Source: Symbiodinium natans (lineage: Eukaryota > Sar > Dinophyceae > Suessiales > Symbiodiniaceae). Taken from it: a stretch of 64,000 nucleotides of DNA. Positions within the stretch are counted from its first letter, which is position 1; every line of letters starts with the position of its first letter. The notes beneath the pieces were generated by a model that was not told the origin of the DNA, made no database searches, and saw nothing but the letters and a program-made list of their open reading frames with translations. Below, in pieces: positions 45,229 through 55,929 of the stretch. A program made the position numbers and the translations under genes. The stretch spans positions 645,136-709,135 of the forward strand of contig CAJNDS010001735.1 in assembly GCA_905221605.1 (NCBI GenBank), in the 5' to 3' direction.

Positions 45229-45955
45229 CACCAATGAGTGTTCGGGAATGGGCATGTTGGACTCGGGAGCATCACATCCTCTCAGATCACTTCGTCCTGG
45301 TGAACAGCTTCTGCAGCAAAAGGTGTTGGTGTCTTTAGCTGTTGGATCTCGGGAGATGTGTATTACCCCAGGTGGGACCCTGGTAACTCCTGAAATGGTA
45401 GATCCACTAGTGCCAATTGGCAAAGCGAGCGCTTTGGTTGGTCTCAGAGTTCAGTGGCGTGGTGGCAAGTGCACAGCCTCACATCCTGTTCTGGGGGAAC
45501 TTCGCGTTCGAGATCTGAATGGGTGCCCTTGTTTGGAAAAGGAGGTGGCGCTTCAGATCATTGATGAAATGGATTGGTGTTCACCAAAGCAAGCATTGAA
45601 GGTGGCACGTATGGTTCAAGGGTGTCCGAGTACGGACAATGAGGCGGCCGTAAAAGCGTCGTTGCAAAGCGCAGCGCGGACAGCGTCAGCGAACGAGGAG
45701 GAGTTCGTCCAGGCATGTTGGCGATTTCTTCGGTGGTATTATGGGGATATACCAGAAAATATGCTGATGGAGCTGTTGCCGCGTGGAGATATTGCGGCGT
45801 TGCCTTTCAACCGTCATAAAAGGAGACGGCTGGCACGAGCAAAAAGGGTGGTGGTACACCTATTTTCAGGAAAACAAAAATGGCATTTTCCCAGTCGGGA
45901 TGTGGAGGTACTGGAGCTGGATTTGAAGAAAGGCGGGGACTACATAATTCGAGCG
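45110..45955 (+). pseudogene. Element 2 second protease domain and start of the methyltransferase-like domain
   Basis: Contains a canonical D-S-G-A-S motif (D codon 45260) followed by GGTLV...HPVLGELRVRDLNGCPCLEKE, which aligns with the single protease of Element 1 (LGELEVSVVKGCPLVPRE). After a linker comes RVVVHLFSGKQ, resembling motif I (SAM binding) of C5 cytosine methyltransferases, and then VEVLELD...GGDY. The open frame runs on to 46105, but homology ends near 45950 where a 1-base shift is needed. Confidence 0.7.
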
Positions 45956-46275
45956 TCTGGAAGTATCTTCTGCATCTGGCGGCTGAAGGAAAGGTGGTTG
46001 CTGTGGTTGGAGGACCTCCATGCAGGACAGTGTCAAGGTTGGGAGGTGAAGACGGTGGTCCACCTGTATTACGCCGGCGCTGTGGGCCTGAACGGTTGGG
46101 ATTAAAAAGTCTTCCTTGGCCACATCAAGAATTAGCTCAAAAGGATGGTGTTTTACTTCTGAAGATGCTTTTCCTATATGACGTGGCGGTGCATTCAAGG
46201 TGTGGAACTGCTGAAGTCATCAATGAAAGTTCTGTCTTCTTTGGCATGGAAAGTCCTGGGGACCCTGAACTCATA
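45952..46275 (+). pseudogene. Element 2 methyltransferase-like domain, catalytic part (before the insertion)
   Basis: Frame entered at about 45952: LLHLAAEGKVVAVVGGPPC then RTVS, matching motif IV (GGPPCQ.FS) of C5 cytosine methyltransferases with the catalytic-type Cys. Further on is ESSVFFGMESPGDPE, which could correspond to the E-N motif VI region. The foldback element enters after the codon ATA at 46275. Joined across it, the frame stays open into 51258, and the later piece has FWSWPEVKRF and FDQGALGHALVKPTTF, similar to the KPT motif of phage-type cytosine methyltransferases. Family assignment is from motifs only. Confidence 0.6.
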
Positions 46276-46799
46276 CACAGAGGGTTCTTTTGAGATAGGG
46301 CACTTATAAGTGGTTATAAGTCACTTACGCAGCACTTAGCATAAAAAGTTATAAGTCAGTTAAGAGCAACTTGCAAGTTAGTTACAAGCTGGATATATCT
46401 ATTTATATGTTTTTATATGTTTTAGTATGCGCCGGCTATCTTTTTGTATCTTTTTTACTTGTTTTTTGTTAGTGCGAATGTTGCTTCCTATTTGCATTTT
46501 ATGTAAGCGGCTGGCAGACATTGTGTCGCAAGGTAGATTGAAGCTTTCACTATATGTCTGTTTTGGGTTAGCAAAACTTATAGGACTTACTAACCTATGT
46601 ACCAGTAGGTTCTAAGTCCTGCCCAAGCTACCTAAGAGTGACCTGAGTCTGTGGAAGTTGCGAAGAGGTTAAGAAATGTTACATAAGAAATGTTACATAA
46701 GTTGCTAAGTTATGTTAACTTTTCTCAGTATTTCCTAGCTTATCAAACTTTTCCTAACATTTTCCAAACATTTTGGTGTTTTTTATTTTCATATGTTTG

Positions 46800-52538: not shown

Positions 52539-52942
52539 ACCCGAAAGCATTGCTTCCCTTTGGTGCTCAGATTCAAGTCAAACGTCGTCCGTGGGAGTTG
52601 CTGGGTCCGGATGGAACAAAGAAAGGTCGGCAATGGGTCGATCGTACGCAGCCCGCGCTTCTTTTGGGTCCATGTGATGACCTACCGGGCGGTTATTGGG
52701 TGGAAGCTCAAGGGACTGCAAAAGATCCGGATGAACTGGTGTTATTTCCCTGCACTACGATTTTTTCCAATATAAAGGAACCGCCTGAATTGGAGCTGGA
52801 AGGGGTGGTAGAAGAACAGGAGCCTTCTCCTCCAGAGCATCGTCTCAAGGGGAAAAAACCGGCGCTTCGGTTCGCTGATGAGGAAGGTCCTCCTTTACCT
52901 CCGCCTCGCGATCCTCCAGTTCGCCATCGGTTGATGAAAAAA
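52526..52942 (+). pseudogene. Element 2 integrase C-terminal region
   Basis: INPKALLPFGAQIQVKRRPWELLGPDG aligns with Element 1 LLPFGVWLHARKRLKSG...GKYLG, the C-terminal region that follows the integrase catalytic core in copia elements. Reached by a -1 shift near a GGGG run at 52529-52532. The true frame leaves again at an A6 run (52937-52942), after which SPASSLRGHVGSLRLLRKRG is the better continuation. Confidence 0.7.
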
Positions 52943-55929
52943 GCCCGGCCTCTTCACTGCGTGGTCATGTGGGCTCCTTGCGCTTGCTTCGCAAGCGGGG
53001 GGAGAGTCCGCCCTTAGAAATTTTCGAGGATGACATGCAGGGTCTGGGGGAGCTGGAAGAAAATGCAGATGTTGAGGACAATGTTCCTGGTGATGAGTAT
53101 TGGCCGACATGCTGTTCTCCTCATGAAGATGCTTATTTGGTCTGCAAAAGTGAGACTGCCGAGGATGGAACACAGTTGGAAAAAGAAGAACAAAAAGCTA
53201 AGTCAATGTATGAAAGGTCTATGTACGATTACGTGGACTGTGAGGAGCTTTTGGAAGGGATTGTATACCCAAAGAGGGTGAATCGAAGAGGTGGTATCAA
53301 CAATTGGTGCACAAGTACGCGAGCTCTGGTGTTGGGCCATTATACTCATGGCGGAGTGTGCGGAATTACAAAAGAGACTCATCGAAGGCCATGGCTATGT
53401 CGTTACCTGGCATCATTTGTGAGGCACCACAATCCTGAAGCCAAATTTTCTGCTCTTCAGATCTCATGCAATGCTCCGGTATCATTGCATAGGGATAGTC
53501 ACAATGAAAAGCATTGCTGCAATTATGTGTGTGGCTTTGGTGACTATAAGGATGGTCAGCTGTGGGTTGAGGATGAAAAGGCTTTAGAGGAAGGAGCTGA
53601 AGTGGTGGAGCAATCCTATGGGAAGAAAGTCTTGCCTGGAAAATTGGTTGATATCCACTGGAACTTCATGTCGTTCTTTCCGAGAAAATTGCATGGTCCT
53701 ATGCCTTGGAAAGGGAACAGGGTATCCTTGACAGGGTACACACCTGTTTTTATGGAGCGTTTGAGCTACAAGGATAGGTGCTATCTTCTCCAATGTAAGT
53801 TTCCTCTTCCGGAACCACAAGCTGAAGAAGGTGGAAAGAGGAAATGGTTAAAAATGACGTTGAAAGAGACCTCGCTGGACGACATTGCGGAGGAAGTCGA
53901 CTATGCTGTGTTCGAAGCGCACCAATGGGCTCTAGAGGAGCATTTGAGTATTCGACGCCTAATTGCTGAACAGGAATGTTGCGTTTTGGACGAGTTCCAT
54001 GGATCGGCCAATGAGTCGAATGGAGAAAAAGGATCAGAGACTAGAGAATGGCTGGTTAAAGCAAAAAGAACCGAGGAACAGCTCTCGAAGTTTTTGGTCA
54101 AAGCAGCTCAAGTTCAGCAAATGGTACAAGAAAATACCGCGCTTGAGGCAGCAGAGGAGGTCGAGTTCCTGCAAACAAAAACAATTCCTACACAAGAAGC
54201 CATGCAAGAGCTGGAAAAGTGGAGGGAACCATTGTCGGACGAGGTGACGTCTTTGGTTAAAGAGTTGGAGGTGGTGGAACCAACAACTCAAGAAAAGCTG
54301 GACAAATTGGCGGAAGAGCCTAATGCACCGGTGATTGAGTACGTGCCCAGTCTGGTGGTGTTTACCCGGAAGCAAGGGACAGGGAGGCGACGTGCCCGTA
54401 TCTGTGCATGTGGCAATTTTATTTCGTCAACGGCAGCTACAGAATACGAAGGGCCGAGGTCCCTCAGTCGTCACTCGCTGTACGCTCCTGGTTTAGATTC
54501 AACTACATTCAGGTGTCAAGTGAGGCACGCAGCATATATGGTGTGGATCATCGCTGGCTTAGACATTTCCAAAGCTTTTCTGACGGCGCCGATGAATAGG
54601 GCGCAAAGAGAAGGGCGTCTGGTGGTGGTGCAGCCCCCAAGGGCGGCGGTGAAATTGGGTCTTTGCACAAAGGAGGAGCGGTGGATTGTGAGGAAGGCCT
54701 TGTACGGTTTGGCCGAAAGTCCTGCAGCATGGGTGGAGTGGCGAGATCAACGTCTTCAAGGCATGTCTTGGGTGTCAAAGGATGGACAAGCAATGAGCTT
54801 TCAGAGGTCCAATGCAGACCCAAGTCTGTTCCTTATTATGGCACAAGAGAAGCCGGAAGGTGCAAGCAAGTTGGTAGGGACAATGGGTCTTTACGTGGAT
54901 GATTTTTTGATGGCTGGGACTATGACAGTGCTCCGGGAGGCCTTGGAACAGATCAGGAAGGAGTGGAAAACTTCTGAACCCGAGTTCTGTGGTCCAGGCT
55001 GTGGTGATGGATTCCTGAAGTTTTTGGGTGTCCAAATCTGGTATCGAAATGGCAGCTTCTTTCTCAACCAGGAGGACTTCGTGAGAGATTTGCTGAACCG
55101 AAGAGGGTATCAGATTGATGAAACTGGAAAAGGTAGTAACCTGCCAATGGTGAAAGAAACTCCAGGTGAAGAAGAGGAGGTGGATATTCCTTCCTTGCGA
55201 GCGGCTCAAGGTGCCGTAGGGGAGTTCCTCTGGGTGGCAATCAAAACTCGACCTGATTTGGCTTTCTGCACAAGCCAGTTGTCTTTGTGGACATCCCGAA
55301 GGCCGCGATTTGTGGTTGAAAAGGCTGAGGAGGTATTTCGATACCTTGCTGCAACTCCAACGTTAGGCTTGACGTTCGGAGCAATCGCAACATGCGAAAA
55401 AGAAAGGAATGAGGTGTTGCGTTATGGGCGAGGCGTCAAGGTGGTAGAGTCCTACGCAGATGCTAGCTTTGCAGCAGGTGAAAACGAAAAGAGCCACTCA
55501 GGAGCGGTGGTGGTTTGGGGTGATTGTCCAGTGATGTGGGCAACGCAGAGACAATCAACGGTGGCTTTGAGTACTGCTGAAGCTGAGTTGCATGCGTCTA
55601 TAGAGGGAGCAACGATGATTCAGTCGTGTACCCCTATAATTGCCGCTTTGGTTGGAACGGGTGAAGAATCGCTGCAAAAAGTGCTGTATACAGATTCGGC
55701 TTCGACCTGCTCAATCATTCAATATCCTGCTGGAAGCTGGCGGACAAGGCACCTGAGAATTCGAGCAGCCGGTGTCAGGTCTCTGGTGGACCGTGGTTAC
55801 ATGGTGATAGCGCATCTTCGTGGTGAGTATATGATTGCTGACCTGTTGACAAAATTGATGAGTGGACAGGTTTATGCGAAGCAAAAGGCGTTTGGGGTCT
55901 CCAAATGTTGGTGCAAGGAACTGACTTGA
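52942..55929 (+). pseudogene. Element 2 2OG-oxygenase-like domain, reverse transcriptase and RNase H
   Basis: Nearly 1000 uninterrupted codons. N-terminal part: LGHYTHGGVCGITKET...YLASFVRHH...LQISCNAPVSLHRDSHNE..., with iron-ligand pattern H (codon 53488)-R-D, H (53692) and R (53719), and DGQLWVE between them. This is the same layout as the Element 1 dioxygenase-like domain. Reverse transcriptase: first Asp in LDISKAFLTAP (codon 54562) and YVDD (54892-54903). RNase H: YADAS (Asp codon 55459), STAEAEL, YTDSAS (55693) and MIADLLTK. All key residues are present, so this portion decayed little. The frame ends at 55929, where the tail continues in another frame. Confidence 0.85.
53290..53740 (+). 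other. 2OG-Fe(II) dioxygenase-like domain in Element 2
   Basis: HxD to second His spacing is 68 residues, and His to Arg is 9, close to the 65 and 10 seen in Element 1. All four presumed ligand residues are retained although other parts of Element 2 have shifted frame. Ligand retention in two divergent elements argues for selection on enzymatic activity. The substrate cannot be read from sequence. Confidence 0.65.

Follow-up and report, generated by a model that had tools for sequence, protein, structure and literature searches.

Introduction

Among the closest described counterparts of the elements reported here are SymbioLINE-Dnmt and SymbioDIRS-Dnmt3, LINE and DIRS elements of Symbiodinium that encode DNA methyltransferases (DNMTs) (de Mendoza et al. 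2018, PMC5890265). We analysed a stretch of 64,000 nucleotides of the dinoflagellate Symbiodinium natans (contig CAJNDS010001735.1, positions 645,136 to 709,135; the whole stretch is called the window below). The window holds two Ty1/copia retrotransposons, Element 1 and Element 2, with extra domains in Pol that resemble 2-oxoglutarate (2OG)/Fe(II) oxygenases and C5-cytosine methyltransferases (C5-MTases). Like the two described families, these are dinoflagellate retrotransposons with a domain of the C5-MTase kind in the coding region. The described families differ in being LINE and DIRS elements with DNMTs that Pfam recognises, and the words dioxygenase, TET and JBP have no occurrence in the main text of PMC5890265.

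A C5-MTase domain inside the Pol of a long terminal repeat (LTR) element, the arrangement found here, is also present in KnitGypsy-Dnmt3 of the charophyte Klebsormidium nitens, where it is under purifying selection; that element is, however, a Gypsy with a clear Dnmt3 in a charophyte host, and the text that describes it mentions no oxygenase (PMC5890265). According to the same text, Symbiodinium Copia elements are without any DNMT domain. In a paper of 2025 (PMC12344493) that cites PMC5890265, streptophytes and dinoflagellates are credited with DNMT3 in their LTR Copia and DIRS elements. This wording conflicts with the cited source, where Gypsy, LINE and DIRS are named, not Copia. If the wording is correct, the literature already has a copia element with a C5-MTase domain. 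The sentences concerned make no link to an oxygenase, and the word dioxygenase appears in that paper a single time, among its references. Therefore, as far as the relevant passages of the two papers go, there is precedent for a methyltransferase in the Pol of an LTR element, and perhaps for one in Copia. An earlier note on this DNA, written from the sequence alone, had pointed to cytosine methyltransferases captured by algal and dinoflagellate retrotransposons, and such a precedent is indeed in print (Symbiodinium LINE and DIRS, charophyte Gypsy; PMC5890265).

Oxygenases of the 2OG type have been described in other mobile elements. Orchid Ty3/Gypsy elements with an open reading frame (ORF) for an AlkB-type 2-ODD protein combine, as here, an LTR retrotransposon with a 2OG-oxygenase domain. 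They differ in that they are Gypsy elements with a separate ORF2, whose product is a clear AlkBH5 relative with shown N6-methyladenosine (m6A) demethylase activity, and they are the precedent for RNA demethylation; the text on these elements reports no domain gain for plant Copia (PMC9289625). Fungal transposons with TET/JBP domains likewise carry a 2OG oxygenase, thought to counter silencing, but the carriers are DNA transposons and Helitrons, and their TET/JBP domains are recognised as such, as described in the sections of PMC12730594 that concern them.

Elements 1 and 2 share with ordinary Ty1/copia elements the LTRs, the primer-binding site, the order Gag, protease, integrase, reverse transcriptase (RT) and RNase H, and the RVT_2 type of RT. 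What sets them apart is the pair of extra domains and, in addition, a long extension at the C terminus of Element 1 and spliced-leader relics in the LTR of Element 2. In the open-licence literature we found no report of a copia element with both a methyltransferase-like and a 2OG-oxygenase-like domain. Our preferred reading, to which we assign a probability of roughly 0.55, is that the two elements represent a dinoflagellate Ty1/copia lineage whose Gag-Pol carries a 2OG/Fe(II)-oxygenase-like and a probably C5-MTase-derived extra domain, both of which would act on the nucleic acid of the element.

Results

Conservation of the oxygenase-like domain

Element 2 is a complete Ty1/copia LTR retrotransposon on the + strand (41874-56856), and Element 1 (15720-26076) is a second copia element, a distant but colinear relative. 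The colinearity extends over Gag, protease, integrase, the 2OG-oxygenase-like (2OG-like) domain and RT with RNase H, with tblastn pieces at 26-32% amino acid identity. Each of the extra domains has its constant place within Pol, and conservation is seen for the oxygenase-like one. All motifs that the earlier note had quoted are present on the + strand in the places given there, namely those of the methyltransferase-like segment between protease and integrase, and HxD, H and R between integrase and RT. The latter position of the 2OG-like domain is the same in both elements (coordinates of all features are given in Table 1).

We observed that the residues H63, D65, H131 and R140 (Element 2 numbering) are all invariant in the alignment of the two domains. 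Conservation of the ligand residues HxD/H/R in a second family member had been set beforehand as a test of the dioxygenase claim, and this is how it came out. The 2OG-like domains of the two elements are 30.6% identical (45/147), compared to 34.9% for RT (89/255), 32.4% for RNase H (48/148) and 21.2% for the linker after the 2OG-like domain (38/179). The local alignment score of the domain was 170, with a mean of 31.9 for shuffled sequences, and not one of 1,000 shuffles reached it. Since the identity is near that of RT and RNase H, constraint on the domain has been about as strict as that on the replication enzymes ever since the elements diverged. These figures point to an old, selected, enzyme-like domain that was present already in the common ancestor.

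A search of the window ORFs for the pattern H.D(50-75)H(7-10)R gave three matches, the two domains and an unrelated site in the integrase ORF of Element 2. The HxD/H/R residues carry weight because they are invariant at aligned positions in two elements of about 30% identity. Together with the conservation of the domain, they are the main grounds for suggesting a 2OG oxygenase.

The copy in Element 1 stands in a single Gag-Pol ORF of 3,188 amino acids, read across one assembly gap of 100 N. In an alignment of 161 nt between the LTRs of this element there is one mismatch, located outside the LTR proper. The element that houses this 2OG-like domain is therefore recent and apparently unbroken. 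Element 1 is a better candidate than Element 2 for a working element, one with the oxygenase-like domain and without the catalytic motif of the methyltransferase.

Profile comparisons and type of the oxygenase-like domain

For profile comparisons we used two sets of proteins. The YbiX-type profile was made of YbiX and nine proteins from seven phage loci (from the best 14 of 181 records), two of which are neighbours annotated as 2OG oxygenases and not themselves matches. The AlkB profile was made of E. coli AlkB and four plasmid proteins (from the best 10 of 51 records), two of them represented by the matched stretch only; a search with AlkB found no phage relatives, and so this set was drawn from plasmids. 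In hhalign, the two-element profile aligned with the YbiX-type profile with the glycine turn, the distal H and the R in register (P 0.0027), and with the AlkB profile with HxD in register (P 0.017). Neither score was reached in 150 column shuffles. When the YbiX-type profile was run over 138 tiles from the 103 window ORFs of at least 90 amino acids, the Element 1 domain ranked first and the Element 2 domain second, while the AlkB profile did not single out the 2OG-like domains among the tiles.

The earlier note had named TET/JBP and AlkB as possible kin, and no result ties the 2OG-like domain to either; the label TET/JBP is not adopted here. A Pfam scan of the domains, with a library that we take to include Tet_JBP, gave no match. 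The spacing from the distal H to R is +9 in Element 2 and +10 in Element 1; it is similar in P4H/IPNS-type enzymes, and amounts to +16 in JBP, +15 in TET and +17 in E. coli AlkB. In human ALKBH5 it is +11 (H266 and R277, as numbered in the text of PMC9289625). No relatives were found in viral contigs by scans limited to relatives sharing one of 2-6 short patterns, nor in prokaryote contigs by scans limited to two short stretches of the 2OG-like domain, nor by tblastn against phages. Matches to de novo TIM-barrel entries of the PDB (E down to 8.5e-7) were discarded as artefacts of summing over repeats, the E value per stretch being at least 67.

The C5-methyltransferase-like segment

Between protease and integrase there is a METHYLTRANSFERASE-like domain, with the order HLFSG, GGPPCRTVS, MESP and FDQG..KPT in Element 2. 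There, HLFSG (45857-45871) is in the frame of ORF 44984-46105 and GGPPCRTVS (from 46009) in ORF 45820-46293, with a frame switch near 45.94 kb between the two. Given the two frames and the approximately 5 kb of extra DNA between GGPPC and FDQG, the Element 2 copy cannot make the methyltransferase-like protein in one piece. The FDQG block is kept in Element 1 at amino acids 1000-1070 (score 94, 0/1000 shuffles), and the block up to HLFSG is common to both elements, with 2 of 1,000 shuffles scoring as high.

The reference set for this segment comprised ten phage proteins and E. coli Dcm (n=11), taken from 13 loci among the best 40 of 1105 records; the set excludes XFactor67, which as annotated has no PC motif, as well as a Flavobacterium phage ORF that is unannotated and the Erwinia phage locus. 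Against the hidden Markov model (HMM) of the 11 proteins, ORF 45820-46293 was the top of 729 window ORFs, with E 0.11. In hhalign, the GGPPC segment aligned to the C5-MTase profile with motif IV in register (P 0.001; none of 150 column shuffles as high), and the ORF ranked first of the 138 tiles, a rank that it kept when Dcm was removed. Its top PHROG matches were two DNA-methyltransferase families (E 0.16 and 0.21). The HLFSG piece alone did not match the C5-MTase profile (16/150 shuffles as high). A pattern picked after the motifs were seen, LFxG with a GxPCxxxS-type motif 90-300 nt further along the same strand, turned up once in 100 simulated windows scanned on both strands.

The individual motifs of Element 2 showed several departures from the references. 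Motif I (FxGxG) is incomplete, HLFSGKQK being without the second G, and is absent in Element 1. Motif IV, PC with the position of the catalytic Cys, is found in Element 2 only, as GGPPCRTVS. The ENV-like motif VI is represented by MESP, 76 residues after the Cys compared to 37-58 in the 11 references, and the distance from motif I to the Cys is about 53 residues compared to 64-84 in the 8 of 11 references where it was measurable. Motif VIII (QxRxR) is absent, with FDQGALGHALVKPTTF in its place; it was found in six of the 11 reference proteins, several being short phage proteins. An alignment of the methyltransferase pieces by MAFFT misplaced the fragments and was not used.

Because of the incomplete FxGxG, the missing QxRxR, the odd spacings and the loss of the centre in Element 1, the segment is termed C5-MTase-like here and is not assigned to the family. 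It is probably derived from a C5-cytosine methyltransferase whose motif-IV Cys has been kept in Element 2 and lost in Element 1. The methyltransferase of the earlier note thus stood in part: motif IV is the best, if weak, match to the C5-MTase profile in the window, while motifs I and VIII turned out to be non-canonical and the catalytic residues are gone from Element 1.

Discussion

Proposed mechanism

The two domains, as parts of Pol, would be packaged together with RT and integrase and would act on the nucleic acid of the element inside the particle. The oxygenase could oxidise cDNA bases or remove methyl groups from the RNA, which would let the incoming DNA escape or imitate the marks of the host; the methyltransferase would be a partner that the elements can do without, decayed in some lineages. 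5-Hydroxymethyluracil is abundant in dinoflagellate DNA and, according to the text of PMC11071213, shows enrichment at repeats in Breviolum, and the Symbiodinium genome is described in PMC5890265 as mostly CG-methylated. Marking or unmarking of the cDNA is therefore a natural hypothesis. Going by its title in the reference list of PMC12344493, Li et al. (2024, PNAS) connect dinoflagellate 5-hydroxymethyluridine with a characterised enzyme and with the silencing of transposable elements. If the title holds, an oxygenase borne by an element would be more likely to oppose such marks, or to use other bases, than to install them. An oxygenase-like domain that is conserved and stands in a seemingly intact copia element would then be a tangible candidate for the part that mobile elements play in a conflict over marks and silencing.

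A more specific proposal is that the virus-like particle packages a base-modifying pair, a writer of the C5-MTase-like kind together with a 2OG oxygenase, which modifies the cDNA before integration, some lineages having the oxygenase only. We consider this version unlikely, and a 'writer plus eraser' function is something that we infer from the presence of the two domains. If it were true, these elements would take a direct part in the 5-hydroxymethyluracil or CG-methylation landscape of dinoflagellate genomes.

Evidence against the preferred reading and alternative explanations

A number of results weigh against a Gag-Pol with two nucleic-acid-modifying domains. All family-level conclusions are drawn from two elements (n=2). 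No model of Pfam, NCBIfam or PHROG matched the 2OG-like domain up to E 5, searches of PDB sequences with both extra domains found no relevant match, and neither 2OG-like domain was picked up by hmmsearch with the YbiX-type or the AlkB profile. An unrelated control pair, the FDQG block and the 2OG profile, gave P 0.022 in hhalign; therefore, the P values of this program are not far from noise. The maxima of the column shuffles were nearly equal to the observed scores (24.7 vs 25.4 and 21.4 vs 21.5). With YbiX dropped from its profile, neither 2OG-like domain was among the top five tiles; in two other drops, Element 1 stayed first and Element 2 came third or fifth. With single sequences, Element 1 matched in register and Element 2 out of register. 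AlphaFold2 on a two-sequence input produced models with mean predicted local distance difference test (pLDDT) values of 34.8 and 37.3, and the best Foldseek hit of the latter had E 1.8, the model being too poor to inform. For the methyltransferase-like segment, 833 of 1,000 shuffles scored as high as the comparison of the centres of Elements 1 and 2, and two of 7290 shuffled ORFs outscored ORF 45820-46293 with the C5-MTase HMM. Without the two GPPC/SPPC proteins of the reference set, this ORF fell to the fourth tile. The second-ranked methyltransferase tile was out of register and was dropped as evidence. Pfam, NCBIfam and PHROG had no significant model for the segment.

That the methyltransferase-like motifs are a decayed or convergent remnant, and the segment a structural linker of this copia lineage, is a real possibility that we nevertheless lean against. 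Element 1, intact and recent, has neither HLFSG nor GGPPC and its catalytic residues are not conserved, which fits a remnant, as do the lack in Element 2 of the second G of FxGxG and of the RxR of motif VIII, the deviating distances from Cys to Glu and from motif I to Cys, the HLFSG piece that the profile does not match, and the silence of Pfam. On the other hand, Cys, Glu and the flanking blocks follow each other in the correct order, motif IV aligns in register, and pairs of LFxG and GxPC are as rare as the simulated windows indicate. It is distinctly improbable, in our estimate, that both domains are illusory, with HxD/H/R and GGPPC as chance patterns in a fast-evolving linker. The pattern H.D(50-75)H(7-10)R arose at a mean of 1.36 matches per shuffled ORF set, with two or more matches in 78 of 200 sets, and so the pattern alone is not rarer than chance; this and the lack of any matching family model speak for a chance origin. 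Yet the 2OG region is conserved like RT and unlike the linker, and four of its residues are invariant.

Protein hydroxylation is a serious rival because of the H-to-R spacing. The oxygenase-like domain could be a P4H/PKHD-type protein hydroxylase of Gag, integrase or a host factor, unrelated to nucleic-acid marks. The spacing of +9 and +10 resembles, from what is generally known of these enzymes, the P4H/IPNS type and is shorter than in JBP, TET and E. coli AlkB; moreover, it was the YbiX-type profile with which H and R aligned in register. That alignment is weak, though, and collapses without YbiX, and HxD is in register with AlkB instead. We regard a protein hydroxylase as rather unlikely, and retain an oxygenase-like domain that would act on the nucleic acid of the element as the preferred reading.

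Structure of the two elements

The features of the two elements are collected in Table 1. The 5-bp target duplication of Element 1 (GGTAG) is unambiguous. Its RT matches Pfam RVT_2 with E 1.6e-17, above the cut-off; Pfam gave no rve row for this element. Past RNase H, the ORF of Element 1 extends by about 700 amino acids (23393-25511). This extension contains several segments that are hydrophobic and membrane-like, along with SSQQVPPSPDVQIGGS-type repeats and a second, incomplete copy of the element's RT; in outline it seems env-like. The putative primer-binding site of Element 1, GGTTATCAGCC at 15873-15883, is unlike that of Element 2, and the anticodon arm of another tRNA may be used. The site of Element 2 is presumably complementary to the anticodon arm of tRNA-Met(CAU).

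Table 1. Positions of features of Elements 1 and 2 in the window.
Feature	Position	Strand	Remarks
Element 2 2OG-oxygenase-like domain	53302..53772	+	HxD 53488-53496, H 53692, R 53719; ORF 52882-55929
Element 1 2OG-oxygenase-like domain (HQD, H, R)	20880..21374	+	amino acids 1646-1810
Element 2 C5-MTase-like segment, first part	45850..46290	+	HLFSG, then GGPPCRTVS and MESP
Element 2 C5-MTase-like segment, last part (FDQGALGH..KPTTF)	51273..51554	+	FDQG..KPTTF from ~51405, ORF 51228-52538
Element 1 counterpart of C5-MTase-like segment	18399..19154	+	GGIVAST at the expected place of GGPPC, by eye; HLFSG absent
Element 1 5' LTR	15720..15872	+	preceded by target duplication GGTAG at 15715-15719
Element 1 single Gag-Pol ORF, 3188 aa	15945..25511	+	spans an assembly gap of 100 N at 16540-16639
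Element 1 3' LTR	25924..26076	+	followed by target duplication GGTAG at 26077-26081
Element 2 5' LTR, TG...AA	41874..42113	+	edges read directly
Element 2 putative primer-binding site GGTTATGAGCCC	42114..42125	+	directly after the 5' LTR
Element 2 Gag region	42149..44640	+	ORF 42149-43609 and start of ORF 43498-45228
Element 2 tandem retropepsin-like segments, n=2 (..VDTAATHLVR.., ..LDSGASHPLR..)	44740..45420	+	motifs read directly
Extra DNA inside Element 2 C5-MTase-like segment	46300..51270	.	holds giant inverted repeat 46552-50687
Element 2 integrase	51640..52540	+	Pfam rve E 2.5e-4, under curated cut-off; colinear with Element 1
Element 2 reverse transcriptase (RVT_2) and RNase H	54350..55929	+	Pfam RVT_2 E 1.4e-10, above cut-off
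Element 2 3' LTR	56616..56856	+	purine run ahead of it

The LTR copies of Element 2 are 99.2% identical over 237 aligned nt. CCCTA at 41869-41873, before the 5' LTR, is a candidate target duplication that the flanking CCCTAAA array makes ambiguous. The Gag region has zinc-finger-like motifs of the CCCH and CCHC types, with zinc-finger matches under the curated cut-off, and from 43600 onwards Element 2 is colinear with Element 1 in tblastn. The two retropepsin-like segments match each other at 33% identity over 57 amino acids (E 1e-4 to 2.6e-4); the first has DTAA in place of DSG/DTG. RNase H gave no Pfam match in Element 2, and was placed by colinearity and motifs. A membrane-like segment was seen by eye after RNase H, at approximately 56.12-56.20 kb and in a different frame.

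The coding part of Element 2 has at least five frame changes, and this copy is non-functional as read; some of the changes are possibly assembly errors. The extra DNA of about 5 kb contains a hairpin of about 4.1 kb (46552-50687) with arms of approximately 1.86 kb and 92% overall identity, either a foldback element nested in Element 2 or an assembly artefact. In the arms, 962 nt are 100% complementary. A 16-nt direct repeat, GCGCCGGCTATCTTTT, flanks the hairpin outside its arms, at 46429-46444 and 50968-50983.

Telomere-type repeats and spliced-leader relics

TTTAGGG/CCCTAAA repeats are scattered over the window (994 heptamers). Both copia elements lie in or beside such repeats, at 15560-15719 and 26077-26200 for Element 1 and at 41700-41873 and 56857-57000 for Element 2. 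A target preference is possibly behind this, with two cases only.

Spliced-leader relics are present in both LTRs of Element 2 as tandem pairs with a period of 18 (41941-41973 and 56683-56715). Four relic matches to CCATTTTGGCTCAAG with 1-2 mismatches were counted compared to 0.33 expected, and none of 100 shuffles had four. In the text of PMC12014239 this 15-mer serves as a tag of dinoflagellate retrogenes. The full 21-nt leader was not found at up to three mismatches, and no relic was found in Element 1 at the same stringency. Taken with the abundant TTTAGGG/CCCTAAA repeats, the relics make a dinoflagellate host almost certain, and the earlier note's reading as a copia retrotransposon of a dinoflagellate is supported. 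From the position of the relics in the LTRs, it appears that the RNA of Element 2 was trans-spliced and that the leader became fixed in the LTR.

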